Shown here in pieces: positions 20,288 through 26,469 of a DNA stretch of 46,826 bases. The stretch is from Thermoleophilia bacterium (GTDB lineage Bacteria; Actinomycetota; Thermoleophilia; Gaiellales; Gaiellaceae): NCBI GenBank assembly GCA_025936995.1, contig JAICSH010000015.1:1-46826 (forward strand), read 5' to 3'. Below the pieces are notes generated by a model. The model saw nothing but the letters and a program-made list of their open reading frames with translations. It did no database searches and was not told the origin of the DNA. The position numbers were made by a program, and so were the translations under genes. The first letter of the stretch is position 1. Each line of letters opens with the position of its first letter.

Positions 20288-21760
20288 TTGTCAGACACGA
20301 CAACTAATCGACGCAAGCTCCTCGTCGTCTTCAACCGTGCGCCGATCTCCTACGCCCGCGAGGGAGGCGAGCGTGTGGCACGGCGGGGAGGCGGTGGCGT
20401 CGTCACGGCGCTCGGCGGCCTCCTGGCGCACCACGACGTGACATGGGTCGCCAGCGCGATGACGGACGAGGACAGGGCCGTCGCCGCGGAGCGTGACGGG
20501 TCGTTCGTCGAGGAGACGGCGAATGGGGCCGCGTACCGGCTCCGGCTCGTCGCGCACGACCCGGGGACGTATGAGCGCTTCTACAGCGTGTTCGCGAATC
20601 CGACCCTCTGGTTCCTGCAGCACTATCTCTGGGGGTTGGGCGCGGCTCCCGACTTCGGGCCGGAGCTGCACGAGGCCTGGAGCGACGGGTACGTCCCGGT
20701 GAACGAGGCGCTGGCCTCCGCCGCCCTCGAGGAGCTCGACCGCGAGCCCGAGGCGGCGGTGCTCTTCCACGACTACCACCTCTACCTCGCGCCTCAGCTC
20801 GTGCGGGCCGCGCGGCCGGACGTCGTCACCTCGCACTTCGTACACATCCCGTGGCCTGAGCCCGACTACTGGCACGCCCTTCCGGAAGGGCTCCGCGTCG
20901 CCATTCACGAAGGGCTGCTCGCGAACGACGTCGTCGGGTTCCACACCGACCGCTGGCGGCAGGCGTTCCTCCTCGCCGCGGGGCACCTCCTCGGAGCGCG
21001 GGTGGACAGAGATGCCGGGACCGTCGAGCACCGCGGCCACAAGACACGCGTCGTCGCACGGCCGATCGGCGTCGAGCCCGCGGAGTTCGATCGGCTGCGC
21101 GAGGATCCCGCCGTGCTCGAGCGTGAGGCCGCCCTCGCGGCCAGGCGGCCGGAACAGCTCGTCCTGCGCGTCGACCGGACGGATCCCTCGAAGAACGTCG
21201 TCCGCGGCTTTCGCGCGTTCGCGTTGCTGCTCGAGCGTCACCGGGAGCTGCACGGGCGGGTCGGGATGGTCGCTCTGCTTGCGCCCTCACGGCAGGACAT
21301 TCCCCTGTATGCCGACTACGTCGCCGAGATCGAAGCGGTCGTGCGAGAGGTGAACGAGCGCTTCGGAAAGGACGACTGGCAGCCGGTGGAGCTCGACATC
21401 GCCGACGACTTCCTCCGCTCAGTCGCCGGCTACAAGCAGTTCGACGTGCTGCTGGCGAATCCGGTCTTCGACGGGCTGAACCTCGTGGCGAAGGAGGCGT
21501 TCCTCGTCAACGAGCGGGACGGCGTGCTCGTCCTCTCGGAGAACGCAGGCGCGCACGCGGAGCTCGGCGATTGGGCGCTGACCGTCAATCCCCTCGACGT
21601 CTCGGGCCAGGCCGACGCGCTCCATGCCGCGCTCACGCTCGAACCCGGCGAGCGGCGCCGTCGGGCGGCCGCGATTCGCGAGCACGTCCGCGCGCACAGC
21701 ATCCGTGAGTGGATCGACGCGCAGCTGGCCGACCTCGACGCCGTACGATCCGCCGGATGA
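20288..21760 (+). CDS. otsA: GT20 glycosyltransferase, trehalose-6-phosphate synthase-like
   Basis: 490 residues, a single GT20 domain. Recognisable motifs are VFNRAPISY at the N-terminus with a Gly-rich loop (RRGGGGVVTALGG), FHDYHLYLAPQLVR, HFVHIPWPEPDYW, LRVDRTDPSKNVVRGF, and the nucleotide-sugar site ANPVFDGLNLVAKEAFL. It is probably trehalose-6-phosphate synthase (UDP- or GDP-glucose plus glucose 6-phosphate); a glucosylglycerol-phosphate synthase is possible. No phosphatase gene (otsB) is nearby. TTG start three bases after the anti-sigma gene; stop overlaps moaC (ATGA). Confidence 0.85.
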   Translation: MSDTTTNRRKLLVVFNRAPISYAREGGERVARRGGGGVVTALGGLLAHHDVTWVASAMTDEDRAVAAERDGSFVEETANGAAYRLRLVAHDPGTYERFYSVFANPTLWFLQHYLWGLGAAPDFGPELHEAWSDGYVPVNEALASAALEELDREPEAAVLFHDYHLYLAPQLVRAARPDVVTSHFVHIPWPEPDYWHALPEGLRVAIHEGLLANDVVGFHTDRWRQAFLLAAGHLLGARVDRDAGTVEHRGHKTRVVARPIGVEPAEFDRLREDPAVLEREAALAARRPEQLVLRVDRTDPSKNVVRGFRAFALLLERHRELHGRVGMVALLAPSRQDIPLYADYVAEIEAVVREVNERFGKDDWQPVELDIADDFLRSVAGYKQFDVLLANPVFDGLNLVAKEAFLVNERDGVLVLSENAGAHAELGDWALTVNPLDVSGQADALHAALTLEPGERRRRAAAIREHVRAHSIREWIDAQLADLDAVRSAG

Positions 21761-22206
21761 GCGATCTGTCCCACGTCGACGAGTCGGGCGACGTCCGGAT
21801 GGTCGACGTCGGCGGCAAGGAGCCGATGCGCCGGCGGGCGGTCGCGCGCGCGGAGGTGCGAATGGCCGCGGAGACGGCTCGGACGCTGCGGGAGCTGCCG
21901 AAGGGCGACGCGCTCGCGACGGCCCAGCTCGCCGGGATCATGGCCGCGAAGCGGACGAGCGAGCTCATCCCCCTGTGCCACCCATTGCCGCTCACCCACG
22001 TCGAGGTGTCGCTCGAGGTGCGCGAGGAGTCGGTCGAGATCGTCGCCGCGGCGGAGACGACCGCGCAGACCGGCGTCGAGATGGAAGCGCTGACCGCCGC
22101 GTCGGTCGCGGCCCTCACCGTCTACGACATGGCGAAGGCGGTCGACAAGGCGATGCGGATCACTGACGTCGTCCTCGTCGAGAAGACGAAGGAGCGCCTC
22201 GCCTGA
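21757..22206 (+). CDS. moaC: Cyclic pyranopterin monophosphate synthase
   Basis: Second enzyme of molybdenum cofactor synthesis, forming cPMP from the MoaA product. 149 residues beginning MSDLSHVDESGDVRMVDVGGK. The conserved LIPLCHPLPLTHV, TGVEMEALTAASVAALTVYDM and the Lys-rich KAVDKAMRI motif with catalytic residues are present. ATG overlaps the previous stop; its own end carries AAGGAG, which serves as ribosome site for mogA. Confidence 0.96.
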   Translation: MSDLSHVDESGDVRMVDVGGKEPMRRRAVARAEVRMAAETARTLRELPKGDALATAQLAGIMAAKRTSELIPLCHPLPLTHVEVSLEVREESVEIVAAAETTAQTGVEMEALTAASVAALTVYDMAKAVDKAMRITDVVLVEKTKERLA

Positions 22207-22682
22207 AGGCCGCGGTCCTCACTGTGTCGGACGGAGTCGTGGCGGGGACGCGCGAGGACCGGAGCGGCGACGTGCTCCACGAGCTGCTGCGGGGCGAGGG
22301 CTACGACGTCGAGCGCCGGGTCGTCCCCGACGAGCGCGACGAGATCGCCGCGGCGGTGCGTGAGCTCGCCGCTTCGGCGCGGCTCGTCCTCACGACCGGT
22401 GGGACCGGGCTCGCGCCGCGGGACGTGACGCCCGAGGCGACGCGGGACGTGCTCGAGCGGGACGCGCCCGGAATCGCGCAGGCGCTGCGCGCGGACTCGA
22501 TCGCGAAGACGCCGCACGGCCTGCTCTCGCGCGGTGCGGCCGGCGTCGTCGGCGCCACACTCGTCGTCAACCTGCCGGGCTCGACGGGAGGATGCCGAGA
22601 CGGCTTCTCCGTCCTGCGCCCCGCCTTGGCGCACGCGCTCGAGCTCCTGGCCGACGCCCCCACCGCGCACGAGCAGACGTGA
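22203..22682 (+). CDS. mogA: Molybdopterin adenylyltransferase (MogA/MoaB-like), CTG start
   Basis: Adenylylates molybdopterin before MoeA inserts molybdate. Motifs: TGGTGLAPRDVTPEAT and NLPGSTGGCRDGF. The first standard start, GTG 22224, would delete the conserved first strand; the family begins M-K-x-A-V-L-T-V-S-D-G, and exactly that sequence (KAAVLTVSDG) follows a CTG at 22203. The CTG overlaps the moaC stop as CTGA and has AAGGAG (22189-22194) eight bases upstream. A CTG start giving 159 residues is therefore strongly supported. Stop overlaps ubiA (GTGA). Confidence 0.92.
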   Translation: MKAAVLTVSDGVVAGTREDRSGDVLHELLRGEGYDVERRVVPDERDEIAAAVRELAASARLVLTTGGTGLAPRDVTPEATRDVLERDAPGIAQALRADSIAKTPHGLLSRGAAGVVGATLVVNLPGSTGGCRDGFSVLRPALAHALELLADAPTAHEQT

Positions 22683-23574: not shown

Positions 23575-24162
23575 GTGCTCGTTGCGCGACGCCTCGGCAA
23601 GCGTTACGGGGAGAAGCGCGTCCTTCGCGGGATCGATCTCGAGCTCTCGCGCGGCGGCTTCCTCGTCATCACCGGGGCCAACGGCTCCGGGAAGACGACG
23701 CTGCTGAGGATCTGCGCCGGCCTCGCGCAGCCGACCGAGGGGAGGATCGAGCGGGACGCGGAGCGCGCGCAGGTGGGCTACCTCGCGCACGAGCCGCTCG
23801 TCTACCGGGAGCTCAGCGCGCTCGAGAACCTCGAGCTCTACGGACGGCTCTACCGCGTGCCGGAGCGGCGCGAGCGGATCGGCATGCTGCTCGAGCGCTA
23901 CGGGCTGTGGGACGTCCGCCGCGATCGCGTCGCGGACTACTCGCGCGGGATGACGCAGCGGCTCGCGCTCTGCCGCACCCTCCTCCACGATCCCGCGCTG
24001 CTCGTGCTCGACGAGCCGTTCACCGCGCTCGACGAGTCCGGGGCCGCCCTGCTCGACGCCCAGCTCGCGGAGCTGCGCGGCGAGCGGACGCTCATGGTCT
24101 CGACCCACGACCCGGGCCGTGTGGCGTCGCTCGCGACAGCCCGGCTCGAGCTGGCGGCGTGA
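23575..24162 (+). CDS. ccmA: Haem exporter ABC transporter ATPase CcmA
   Basis: ATPase of the CcmAB(CD) complex of cytochrome c maturation system I, which drives release of holo-CcmE. 195 residues with Walker A GANGSGKTT, Q-loop region, signature YSRGMTQRL and Walker B LLVLDEPFTALD. GTG at 23575 has a TATGCT six bases before it. Followed by ccmB with GTGA overlap, which separates it from generic ABC ATPases. Confidence 0.9.
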   Translation: MLVARRLGKRYGEKRVLRGIDLELSRGGFLVITGANGSGKTTLLRICAGLAQPTEGRIERDAERAQVGYLAHEPLVYRELSALENLELYGRLYRVPERRERIGMLLERYGLWDVRRDRVADYSRGMTQRLALCRTLLHDPALLVLDEPFTALDESGAALLDAQLAELRGERTLMVSTHDPGRVASLATARLELAA

Positions 24163-24797
24163 CCTACGCGAGAGACGTCGGCGCGCTCGCGCGCAAGGAC
24201 CTCCTGCTCGAGCTGCGGGCGCGGGACACGCTGCCGGCGATGCTCCTCTTCGTCGTCTCGACCTTCGTCGTCTTCCACTTCTCGCTACCCGCGCATCCTT
24301 CGAGGCTCGCGGCGAGTGGGCTCCTGTGGGTGGCGATCCTGTTCACCGCGCTGCTCGGGCTCGGGCGTGCGTTCGTGCCGGAGCGGGAGCAGCGCGTGCT
24401 CGACGGGCTCGTGCTTGCCCCGTGCGACCGGAGCGCGATCTGGCTCGGCAAGTCGATCGCGACGCTCGCCTTCCTCGTCGCGGCGGAGGTCGTCGCGCTG
24501 CCGGTCTACGCGCTCTTCTTCCGGCCGCTGAGCGGGGCAGCCGTGCTCGGCGTGGCCCTCGCGGACGTCGGGATCTGCGCGGTCGGGACGTTCCTCGGCG
24601 CGATGGCGGTGACGACGCGAGCCCGCGAGCTCATCCTGCCCCTGCTCTTCCTGCCGCTGGCGATCCCGATCGTCATCGGCGGTGTCGGCTCCGGTGCTGC
24701 GGACTCGCCGGGCCGCTACCTCGGGTTCCTCGTCCTCTACGACCTCCTGTTCGCCGTCGTCTGCTGGGCGTCGTTCGAGTATGTCGTCGCCGAGTAG
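24159..24797 (+). CDS. ccmB: Haem exporter permease CcmB
   Basis: 212-residue membrane permease, the partner of CcmA. It begins MTYARDVGALARKDLLLELRARD, the typical CcmB N-terminal cytoplasmic segment, then six membrane segments; APCDRSAIWLGKS and LPLLFLPLAIPIVIGG are CcmB-like. GTG overlaps the ccmA stop. Confidence 0.9.
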   Translation: MTYARDVGALARKDLLLELRARDTLPAMLLFVVSTFVVFHFSLPAHPSRLAASGLLWVAILFTALLGLGRAFVPEREQRVLDGLVLAPCDRSAIWLGKSIATLAFLVAAEVVALPVYALFFRPLSGAAVLGVALADVGICAVGTFLGAMAVTTRARELILPLLFLPLAIPIVIGGVGSGAADSPGRYLGFLVLYDLLFAVVCWASFEYVVAE

Positions 24798-24822: not shown

Positions 24823-25509
24823 GTGGGTCGCACGCGTCGCATCCCCCTGCCCGCGCTCGCCGCGACGTCGCTCGTGCTCGTCACGACGGCGATCGCCTTC
24901 GTCTTCTTCGTCGCGCCGAACGACGCGGACCAGGGCTTCTCGCAACGGATCTTCTACTTCCACGTCTCGCTCGCCTTCACGGCCTACGCGTGCTTCGCCG
25001 GCGGCGCGTGGAACGCGTTCCGGCACCTCTGGAAGCGGGATCCGCGCGCCGATCTCCGGAGCTACGTCTGCGTGCACCAGGGGCTGATCTTCGGGACGCT
25101 CGTCCTGCTCACCGGGTCCATCTGGGCGAAGATCTCGTGGGGCCGGTGGTGGATCTGGAGCGAGGACGAGCTCGTCCTGTTCCTCGTCCTCTACCTCTTC
25201 TACTGCGCGTACTTCATGCTCCGCTTCTCGGTCGATCCCGGGCCGCAGCGCGCGAACCTGAGCGCGGTGTATGCGCTCTTCGGCGTCGTCCTCATCCCCG
25301 TGAGCTTCGCCGCGATCCGGCTCGCGAAGACCCTCCTCCATCCCGTGGTGTTCACGCCCCACGGCCCCAACTTCGGCGGCTGGATCCTCGTCACCTATTG
25401 CCTCGCGCAGGTCGCGATGCTCGTCCTCGCGTACACGCTCTACCGGCTCGAGCTCGGCGCCAAGCGGCTCGACGGGCGGCTGCGCCGGCTGAGGGAGGTG
25501 CTCGTCTGA
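24823..25509 (+). CDS. ccmC: Cytochrome c assembly protein CcmC
   Basis: 228-residue haem-handling membrane protein of the CcmC/CcsA family, six membrane segments. The Trp-rich haem-binding motif is WAKISWGRWWIWSEDE. The two flanking histidines are seen in IFYFHVSLAF and LHPVVF. It presents haem to CcmE in system I; no ccmE, ccmF or ccmH is in the window. The stop overlaps the next gene as CTGA. Confidence 0.9.
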   Translation: MGRTRRIPLPALAATSLVLVTTAIAFVFFVAPNDADQGFSQRIFYFHVSLAFTAYACFAGGAWNAFRHLWKRDPRADLRSYVCVHQGLIFGTLVLLTGSIWAKISWGRWWIWSEDELVLFLVLYLFYCAYFMLRFSVDPGPQRANLSAVYALFGVVLIPVSFAAIRLAKTLLHPVVFTPHGPNFGGWILVTYCLAQVAMLVLAYTLYRLELGAKRLDGRLRRLREVLV

Positions 25510-25688
25510 CCACTTCGGAGAAATACGTCACCGCGGCGTACTGCGTCGTCTTCGCCGTCGTCCTCGTCTACGTCCTGATCATGGCGCTCAAGCTCCAGCG
25601 GCTCGAGCGCGAGGTCGACGAGCTCGCGGGGCGCGCGCCTGCGGACGACGCGGAAGAGGCTCCGCGGGAGCCGGCGCGAGTTGGCTGA
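25506..25688 (+). CDS. CcmD-like small membrane protein, CTG start
   Basis: 60 residues: a short N-terminus, one membrane segment (about 8-28, AAYCVVFAVVLVYVLIMAL), then a charged helix (LQRLEREVDELAG) and an acidic tail. Size, topology and location directly after ccmC match CcmD, although CcmD sequence is poorly conserved. No ATG, GTG or TTG precedes the membrane segment. CTG at 25506 overlaps the ccmC stop and has GGAGG (25494-25498) seven bases upstream, a perfect initiation context apart from the codon itself. Confidence 0.75.
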   Translation: MTTSEKYVTAAYCVVFAVVLVYVLIMALKLQRLEREVDELAGRAPADDAEEAPREPARVG

Positions 25689-26469
25689 GCTGCTCTTCTG
25701 GCCGGCGCTGTTCCTCTACGGGGAAGCGGCGATCGGATACTTCGGCGAAGTGAGGCGTCCGGGCCTGGCCGGGCGCGCCGCGACGTGGGGCGTCCGTCTC
25801 GGTTGGCTCCTGCAGACCGCGCTGCTCGGCGTCCAGGCGGCTCGCGACGACGGCTTCCCGTGGGGGACGTGGGCCTCGTCGCTCGATCTCTTCGTCTGGC
25901 TCGTCGTTTCCGCGTATCTCATCTGGGGTTGCCGCAGGCCGTACCGGCTGCTCGGCCTCGTCGTCATGCCGCTCGCGGTGGCGCTGCTCGTCGTGGCCCG
26001 CGCCGGCGGAGGGACCGGAATAGGGGCTGCGAGCCACTACTCGAACCTCTTCCTCGTCGTCCACGTCGGGCTCGTCCTCGCCGCATTCGCGGGCTTCACG
26101 CTCGCCGCGGCCATCTCGGGGCTCTACATCTGGCAGGAGCGGCGGCTGAGGTCGCGGCCGGCGGCGATCCTCCGCCGGCAGATGCCCGCGCTCGCGACGC
26201 TCGACTCGCTCGCGTTGCGGACGGTCGCGTGGTCGGTGCCGCTGCTCACCCTCGGCGCCGCCGTCGGCCTCGTGCGGCTCGTCGCCCGCGGTGACAGGCT
26301 CGACGCGCTCATCGCGGTCACCGCCGCCACCTGGATCGTCTGGTGCGCGTATCTCGGACTGCGGCTGCTCGGCGGCTGGACGGGACGGCGCGCCGCCTAT
26401 CTCGCCCTGGCCGGCTTCATTCTCGTTGGCGTCGTCCGGCTGGCGCTTCCGGCCGCCCACTTCGCATGA
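25681..26469 (+). CDS. CcsA/HemX-like cytochrome c assembly protein
   Basis: 262-residue membrane protein of the PF01578 (cytochrome c assembly) family, eight membrane segments. The family Trp motif is seen as DDGFPWGTWASSLDLF, with histidines in VVHVGLVLAAF and near the C-terminus. The position directly before hemA is that of hemX in Gram-positives, where HemX lowers HemA level; alternatively it is a second haem-handling protein working with CcmC. TTG start inside the previous gene; stop overlaps hemA (ATGA). Confidence 0.82.
   Translation: MAELLFWPALFLYGEAAIGYFGEVRRPGLAGRAATWGVRLGWLLQTALLGVQAARDDGFPWGTWASSLDLFVWLVVSAYLIWGCRRPYRLLGLVVMPLAVALLVVARAGGGTGIGAASHYSNLFLVVHVGLVLAAFAGFTLAAAISGLYIWQERRLRSRPAAILRRQMPALATLDSLALRTVAWSVPLLTLGAAVGLVRLVARGDRLDALIAVTAATWIVWCAYLGLRLLGGWTGRRAAYLALAGFILVGVVRLALPAAHFA

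Follow-up and report, generated by a model that had tools for sequence, protein, structure and literature searches.

A CTG codon overlapping the ccmC stop as the probable start of ccmD in a member of the Gaiellaceae, and further probable CTG starts at other gene junctions of its genus

Reinitiation of translation at overlapping stop and start codons is established in bacteria (PMC6728339), and post-termination 70S ribosomes reach a nearby start codon aided by a Shine-Dalgarno sequence and IF3 (PMC5972666). The four-base overlap is written as (A/G/T)TGA (PMC3887535). First-position pairing of CUG with a variant initiator tRNA is described as poor (PMC11497404), and the reported counts of CUG starts are low: 0.03% of the selected leadered starts in mycobacteria (PMC4633059), 20 ORFs or 0.024% in 69 genomes (PMC9845219), and four switches to CUG among about 68,900 starts reconstructed in 36 genome triplets (PMC5622118). 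Moreover, no activity of a CUG reporter was seen in E. coli or tobacco chloroplasts (PMC9845219). CUG initiates poorly in the bacteria tested, and this counts against a functional CTG start. All 64 codons have reportedly been covered in E. coli by Hecht et al. In the portions of the literature that were searched, neither CTGA junctions nor a bacterial genus using CTG were found to be described. CTG starts have been counted as near-accidents in bacteria. In the present case, CTG seems to be retained throughout a genus at certain genes, among them an essential one.

The window analyzed here comprises positions 1 to 46,826 of the forward strand of contig JAICSH010000015.1 from a Gaiellaceae genome (GCA_025936995.1). 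It carries a ccmD-family gene behind ccmA-like, ccmB and ccmC genes and in front of a CcsA/CcmF-like gene and hemA. In the following, genomes are denoted by G numbers (G000 being that of the window) and loci or stretches by L numbers.

23575-24162, + strand: ccmA-like ABC ATPase gene, GTG start placed by alignment, Walker-A-like motif recognized by eye only
24159-24797, + strand: ccmB, GTG start from the start alignment, PF03379 at 83.2 bits
24823-25509, + strand: ccmC, GTG start placed by alignment, PF01578 at 85.3 bits; TIGR01191 (85.3 bits) is the best NCBIfam match, below its cut-off
25494-25498, + strand: GGAGG, Shine-Dalgarno-like, seven-base spacer to the ccmD CTG, motif count not above chance
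25506-25509, + strand: CTGA junction, read directly, in which the ccmD CTG (25506-25508) overlaps the ccmC stop TGA (25507-25509)
25506-25688, + strand: ccmD-family gene with CTG start, 60 aa, stop TGA at 25686-25688, from translation, the TIGR04391 profile and orthologous starts
25533-25589, + strand: membrane helix of the CcmD-like protein predicted by hydropathy, residues 10-28, mean Kyte-Doolittle value 2.78
25681-26469, + strand: CcsA/CcmF-like cytochrome c assembly protein gene, TTG start at a conserved TTG/ATG start column, PF01578 at 38.2 bits

Translation of 25506-25688 (+) gives LTTSEKYVTAAYCVVFAVVLVYVLIMALKLQRLEREVDELAGRAPADDAEEAPREPARVG, a single-helix protein of 60 amino acids adjoining ccmC, which matched TIGR04391 (CcmD family protein, CcmD_alt_fam) with 34.7 bits at a cut-off of 24 and did not reach the thresholds set for classical CcmD (TIGR03141, 18.4 vs 25.95; PF04995, 22.2 vs 25.6). 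A member of this family would be needed for cytochrome production, acting in a complex with CcmABC and serving CcmE. The TTG start of the CcsA-like gene lies inside the last ccmD codons with an overlap of eight bases (25681-25688), this start being TTG in most genomes of the genus and ATG in three. Since CcmE (PF03100) was found in 14 of the 16 genus genomes, a CcmABCD/CcmE route in the genus appears plausible. A second ccm cluster was noted in G012 (L065, contig G012:C41), where an additional CcmD-like frame follows a ccmC-like one and the contig also carries a CcmE match (PF03100).

The preliminary description had pointed to CTG 25506 overlapping the ccmC stop and to GGAGG seven bases upstream, and both are read directly in the sequence. 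Its further statement that no ATG, GTG or TTG precedes the helix is right for any sensible start: the nearest canonical start in frame on the 5' side is TTG 25398, 36 codons upstream and within ccmC, and the first on the 3' side is ATG 25581, which is codon 26 and lies within the hydrophobic residues 10-28. Initiation at one of these canonical codons, or at GTG 22224 in the case of mogA, is conceivable as such codons exist, but a start at ATG 25581 would truncate the CcmD helix, and one at TTG 25398 would prepend 36 residues read from ccmC in another frame; together with the evidence from mogA, murF and the methyltransferase gene given below, this makes canonical starts further inside or upstream highly improbable. 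The stop and start of the ccmC/ccmD pair lie as close together as in termination-reinitiation pairs, but the start is CTG and not a canonical codon. The only ORF with an ATG, GTG or TTG start in the ccmD frame is a 232-codon GTG ORF buried in ccmC, and hence loss of ccmD in routine annotation is plausible. The motif GGAGG-N(4,9)-CTGA was found once in the GC-rich window, against 3.4 occurrences expected in shuffles; there is no enrichment, so the motif alone proves nothing, and orthologous start columns were used as evidence instead of motif statistics. Conservation of 'NTG' alone was also rejected as start evidence, because a conserved overlapping TGA stop of the upstream gene forces NTG. The informative evidence used was the first base, the absence of alternative starts, and starts without stop overlap.

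The preliminary description had made its proposal depend on conservation of the reading frame in relatives, and the frame is indeed conserved: a ccmD-like protein was matched in 80 of the 101 genomes searched, and the CTG aligns exactly with orthologous ATG, GTG and TTG starts. The genomes seen by title are all metagenome-derived assemblies (Thermoleophilia, Gaiellaceae, 'Actinomycetota') from several projects. At 55 same-family loci the aligned start codon is ATG (21), GTG (18), TTG (3) or CTG (3), with NTG at the exact column in 45/55, and at the other 10 an ATG or a GTG lies between codons -2 and +4; L057, L074, L077, L078, L080 and L081 were left out as they gave no local match, and L076 (same family) and L082 as misplaced. 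The CTG loci are those of G000, G001 and G009, in which canonical starts are absent between 15 codons upstream and 9 codons downstream. A further set of 80 loci, which overlaps the main set and may omit the window's own genome, gave ccmD in 77 cases, two of them with CTG. At the ccmD column, C is the first base in 3 of 45 loci, whereas it precedes 96 of 185 TGA stops that have no overlap (Fisher 7e-9, kinship ignored); for this reason the first base at ccmD appears to be selected as in a start codon, i.e., the column is read as a start codon at which CTG is tolerated but disfavoured. The earlier view of CTGA as a variant of the usual ATGA/GTGA junction is supported, and its link to mogA holds as well (CTG in 12/15), but CTG is not fixed at ccmD, where it is the exception (3/17 genus loci). 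This sporadic occurrence, limited in the genus to G000, G001 and G009, would also suit a decaying start at which efficient CcmD expression is lost and CTG initiation is non-functional. Against this, the ccmD frame is intact, with the window's product sharing 92% identity with that of G001, 87% with that of G014 and 75% with that of G009, and CTG has long been kept in the essential gene murF (13/15) and in mogA, which renders decay very improbable.

A second CTG start in the window was found at mogA.

21757-22206, + strand: moaC, PF01967 at 172.4 bits, upstream partner of mogA
22189-22194, + strand: AAGGAG, eight-base spacer to the mogA CTG, from sequence reading
22203-22682, + strand: mogA/moaB-type gene with the second CTG start in the window, PF00994 at 108.2 bits; CTGA at 22203-22206 overlaps the moaC stop

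Comparison of 50 loci revealed CTG at the mogA start column in 12 of the 15 genus genomes having the gene and in 5 of 35 others. Because C as first base in the genus (12/15) does not differ clearly from the background (96/185; p = 0.057), the first base of mogA may be nearly neutral. Several mogA rows contain a GTG four to eight codons downstream, as a canonical start further inside would require, but in G003 the mogA CTG has no canonical start nearby. In G037 (L122), GTA stands at the mogA column and overlaps a TAA stop (GTAA), and ATG, GTG and TTG are all absent between 10 codons upstream and 8 codons downstream; this could be a GTA start or an assembly error. In G088 (L187), a member of a related family, the moaC tail seems to continue in frame into mogA, likely as a natural MoaC-MogA fusion.

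The essential gene murF, located behind murE, starts with CTG at 13 of 15 genus loci as compared to none of 15 same-family loci outside the genus. These 30 loci were read among 74 genomes with murF matches, and the 13 comprise 12 at the aligned column and G008, which is two codons off in the local alignment. The murF gene of G000 (L149:5690-6922, CTG start; other murF loci, L190-L218) was found with the dcw cluster. While several rows again show GTG four to eight codons downstream, the CTG rows of G003, G005, G008, G009, G013 and G015 lack a nearby canonical start, which argues against initiation at such codons; in G005 the frame is closed by a stop nine codons upstream, and the first canonical start is codon 21 downstream. 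The N-terminus reads LIPLPLAEV, and PRK10773 (NF008041) aligns residue 2 with model position 2. LIPLPLAEV agrees with MI.LTLAEI, which we take to be the start of MurF. On a nine-gene tree, read by eye and with some low internal supports, the most suitable position for the CTG of murF is the base of the genus, followed by its loss in the pair G002 and G012, and two or three origins are suggested for the CTG of ccmD.

A further gene, coding for a SpoU-type RNA methyltransferase (PF00588 and an MRM3-like N-terminal domain by profile match), begins with CTG at 11 of 13 genus loci (L337-L349) and 4 of 16 others; 30 loci were read among 60 genomes with matches, and 29 were usable, L364 being cut by the contig edge. 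All 11 genus CTG loci are devoid of a canonical start within -15 to +20 codons, again at odds with a canonical start nearby. The rplT stop is TAG five bases upstream of the CTG in G006 and G011 and TGA four bases upstream in G015, so that in these genomes the CTG triplet is not forced by overlap. A short tandem duplication was observed in G015 that shifts the CTG off the rplT stop codon. Where the methyltransferase gene adjoins rplT, CTG was found in 13 of 15 cases as compared to 2 of 14 elsewhere (Fisher 1.5e-4, kinship ignored), and in G002 and G014, where the gene is located away from rplT, the start is GTG.

These distances also bear on programmed -1 frameshifting at the stop, which would yield CcmC-CcmD, MoaC-MogA and MurE-MurF fusions, need no start codon and leave the first base free. 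The proteins do match NCBIfam models of natural MoaC/MoaB and MurE/MurF fusions (NF002947, NF008896), and both the in-frame moaC tail of G088 and the near-neutral first base of mogA would be in line with it. Nonetheless, we consider frameshifting very unlikely: the codon before TGA differs among genomes and no slippery heptamer was seen by eye, the first base of ccmD is strongly biased to A/G, and in three genomes the CTG follows the rplT stop by four to five bases, a spacing at which -1 slippage on that stop cannot yield a fusion.

The extent of CTG starts was surveyed in 63 aligned families (at least five genomes each) from four regions, namely ccm/hem, dcw, nuo and infC. In this survey, only murF, mogA and the SpoU-type methyltransferase gene showed unambiguous CTG starts in most genomes. 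CTG use appears specific to certain genes, since junctions such as those of ccmB, moaC, ubiA and the murB-like gene in these four regions have no CTG starts. Several columns were not counted: hemA (window position 26466), where most genus genomes have NTG-ATG and the first codon is CTG in 5/16, the next ATG making the start ambiguous; families 6881 and 5397, in which the next codon is ATG; and family 3126 behind hemA (CTG 9/9 at the column), which resembles a short out-of-frame ORF. The CTG columns of presumptive MurG, GcvP-like and PheS-like genes appear to be leucine codons inside longer frames. As isolated observations, CTG was noted at a trehalose-phosphate-synthase-like gene in G008 as well as G015 and, in the single genome G006 (stretch L089), at a CTGA junction where a recF-like frame would begin. 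infC was not found in the incomplete assemblies of G000 and G011.

Conservation of the frame, homologous start positions, absence of alternative starts and recurrence within one genus are seen in the comparison of these sequences. We regard it as highly probable that CTG 25506 is the real start of ccmD, reached by reinitiation on CUG, and that the same device operates in the genus at mogA after moaC, murF after murE and the SpoU-type methyltransferase gene after rplT. We propose that GGAGG 25494-25498 would retain ribosomes that have ended ccmC translation at TGA 25507-25509, and that these would reinitiate on the CUG overlapping this stop; GGAG(G) holding the ribosome at the stop would let CUG serve at a low but sufficient rate. 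Initiation would use the ordinary initiator fMet-tRNA, so that the ccmD product would begin with Met and not Leu. If CTG is read as Met, the expected N-terminal peptides are MTTSEKYVTAAY..., MIPLPLAEVR... and MKAAVLTVSD... An initiator tRNA with a CAG anticodon was not found in the 16 genomes searched with the pattern GGGYTCANAACCC, which initiators deviating from it would escape. The pattern detected an initiator-type tRNA in 13 of the 16 genomes, each with one CAT-anticodon copy classified as tRNA-Met by ARAGORN. In this search the sole CAG-type match (G009, L243) was not a tRNA, and an altered initiator tRNA reading CUG was set aside on these results.

One lineage would employ termination-reinitiation on CUG repeatedly, with CUG possibly acting as a weak start, and a weak CUG would lower the output of the downstream gene. 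The correlation with rplT favours the notion that CUG is kept to lower output, and the near-neutral first base of mogA favours the notion that CUG is merely tolerated. It may be suggested, tentatively and with somewhat more doubt than belief, that in this genus CUG serves as a regular fourth start, only in reinitiation just behind a stop, and that it is selected as a built-in attenuator. If so, a low-need enzyme would ride behind a high-output gene, as the methyltransferase behind ribosomal protein L20 or MurF behind MurE. The well-resolved CTG starts lie at the upstream stop or at most five bases from it, which raises the questions whether reinitiation relaxes the choice of start codon and whether a weak start sets the ratio of coupled proteins. 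Furthermore, gene finders limited to ATG, GTG and TTG would, if CTG starts are real, miss or truncate such genes across the lineage; annotation of such lineages can omit small genes like ccmD as well as the N-terminal residues of MurF and MogA.

CUG starts are known but rare, and the genus-wide pattern beyond ccmD, at mogA, murF and the methyltransferase gene, is wider than the preliminary description had claimed. As in the ATGA, GTGA and TTGA reinitiation overlaps (PMC6728339, PMC3887535), TGA and start codon overlap here, a Shine-Dalgarno-like sequence lies upstream and the neighbours belong to one pathway; in contrast to them, the first base is C, and the string CTGA is absent from the main text of PMC6728339 and PMC12548453. 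With the rare bacterial CUG starts, as described in PMC5622118 and PMC9845219, the present starts share a C-first NTG codon read by initiator tRNA, but those are very rare, whereas here CTG is conserved genus-wide at particular genes. Finally, the ccmD product resembles the CcmD family TIGR04391 in its score above the cut-off, its one helix and the position of its gene directly after ccmC, and differs in its start codon.
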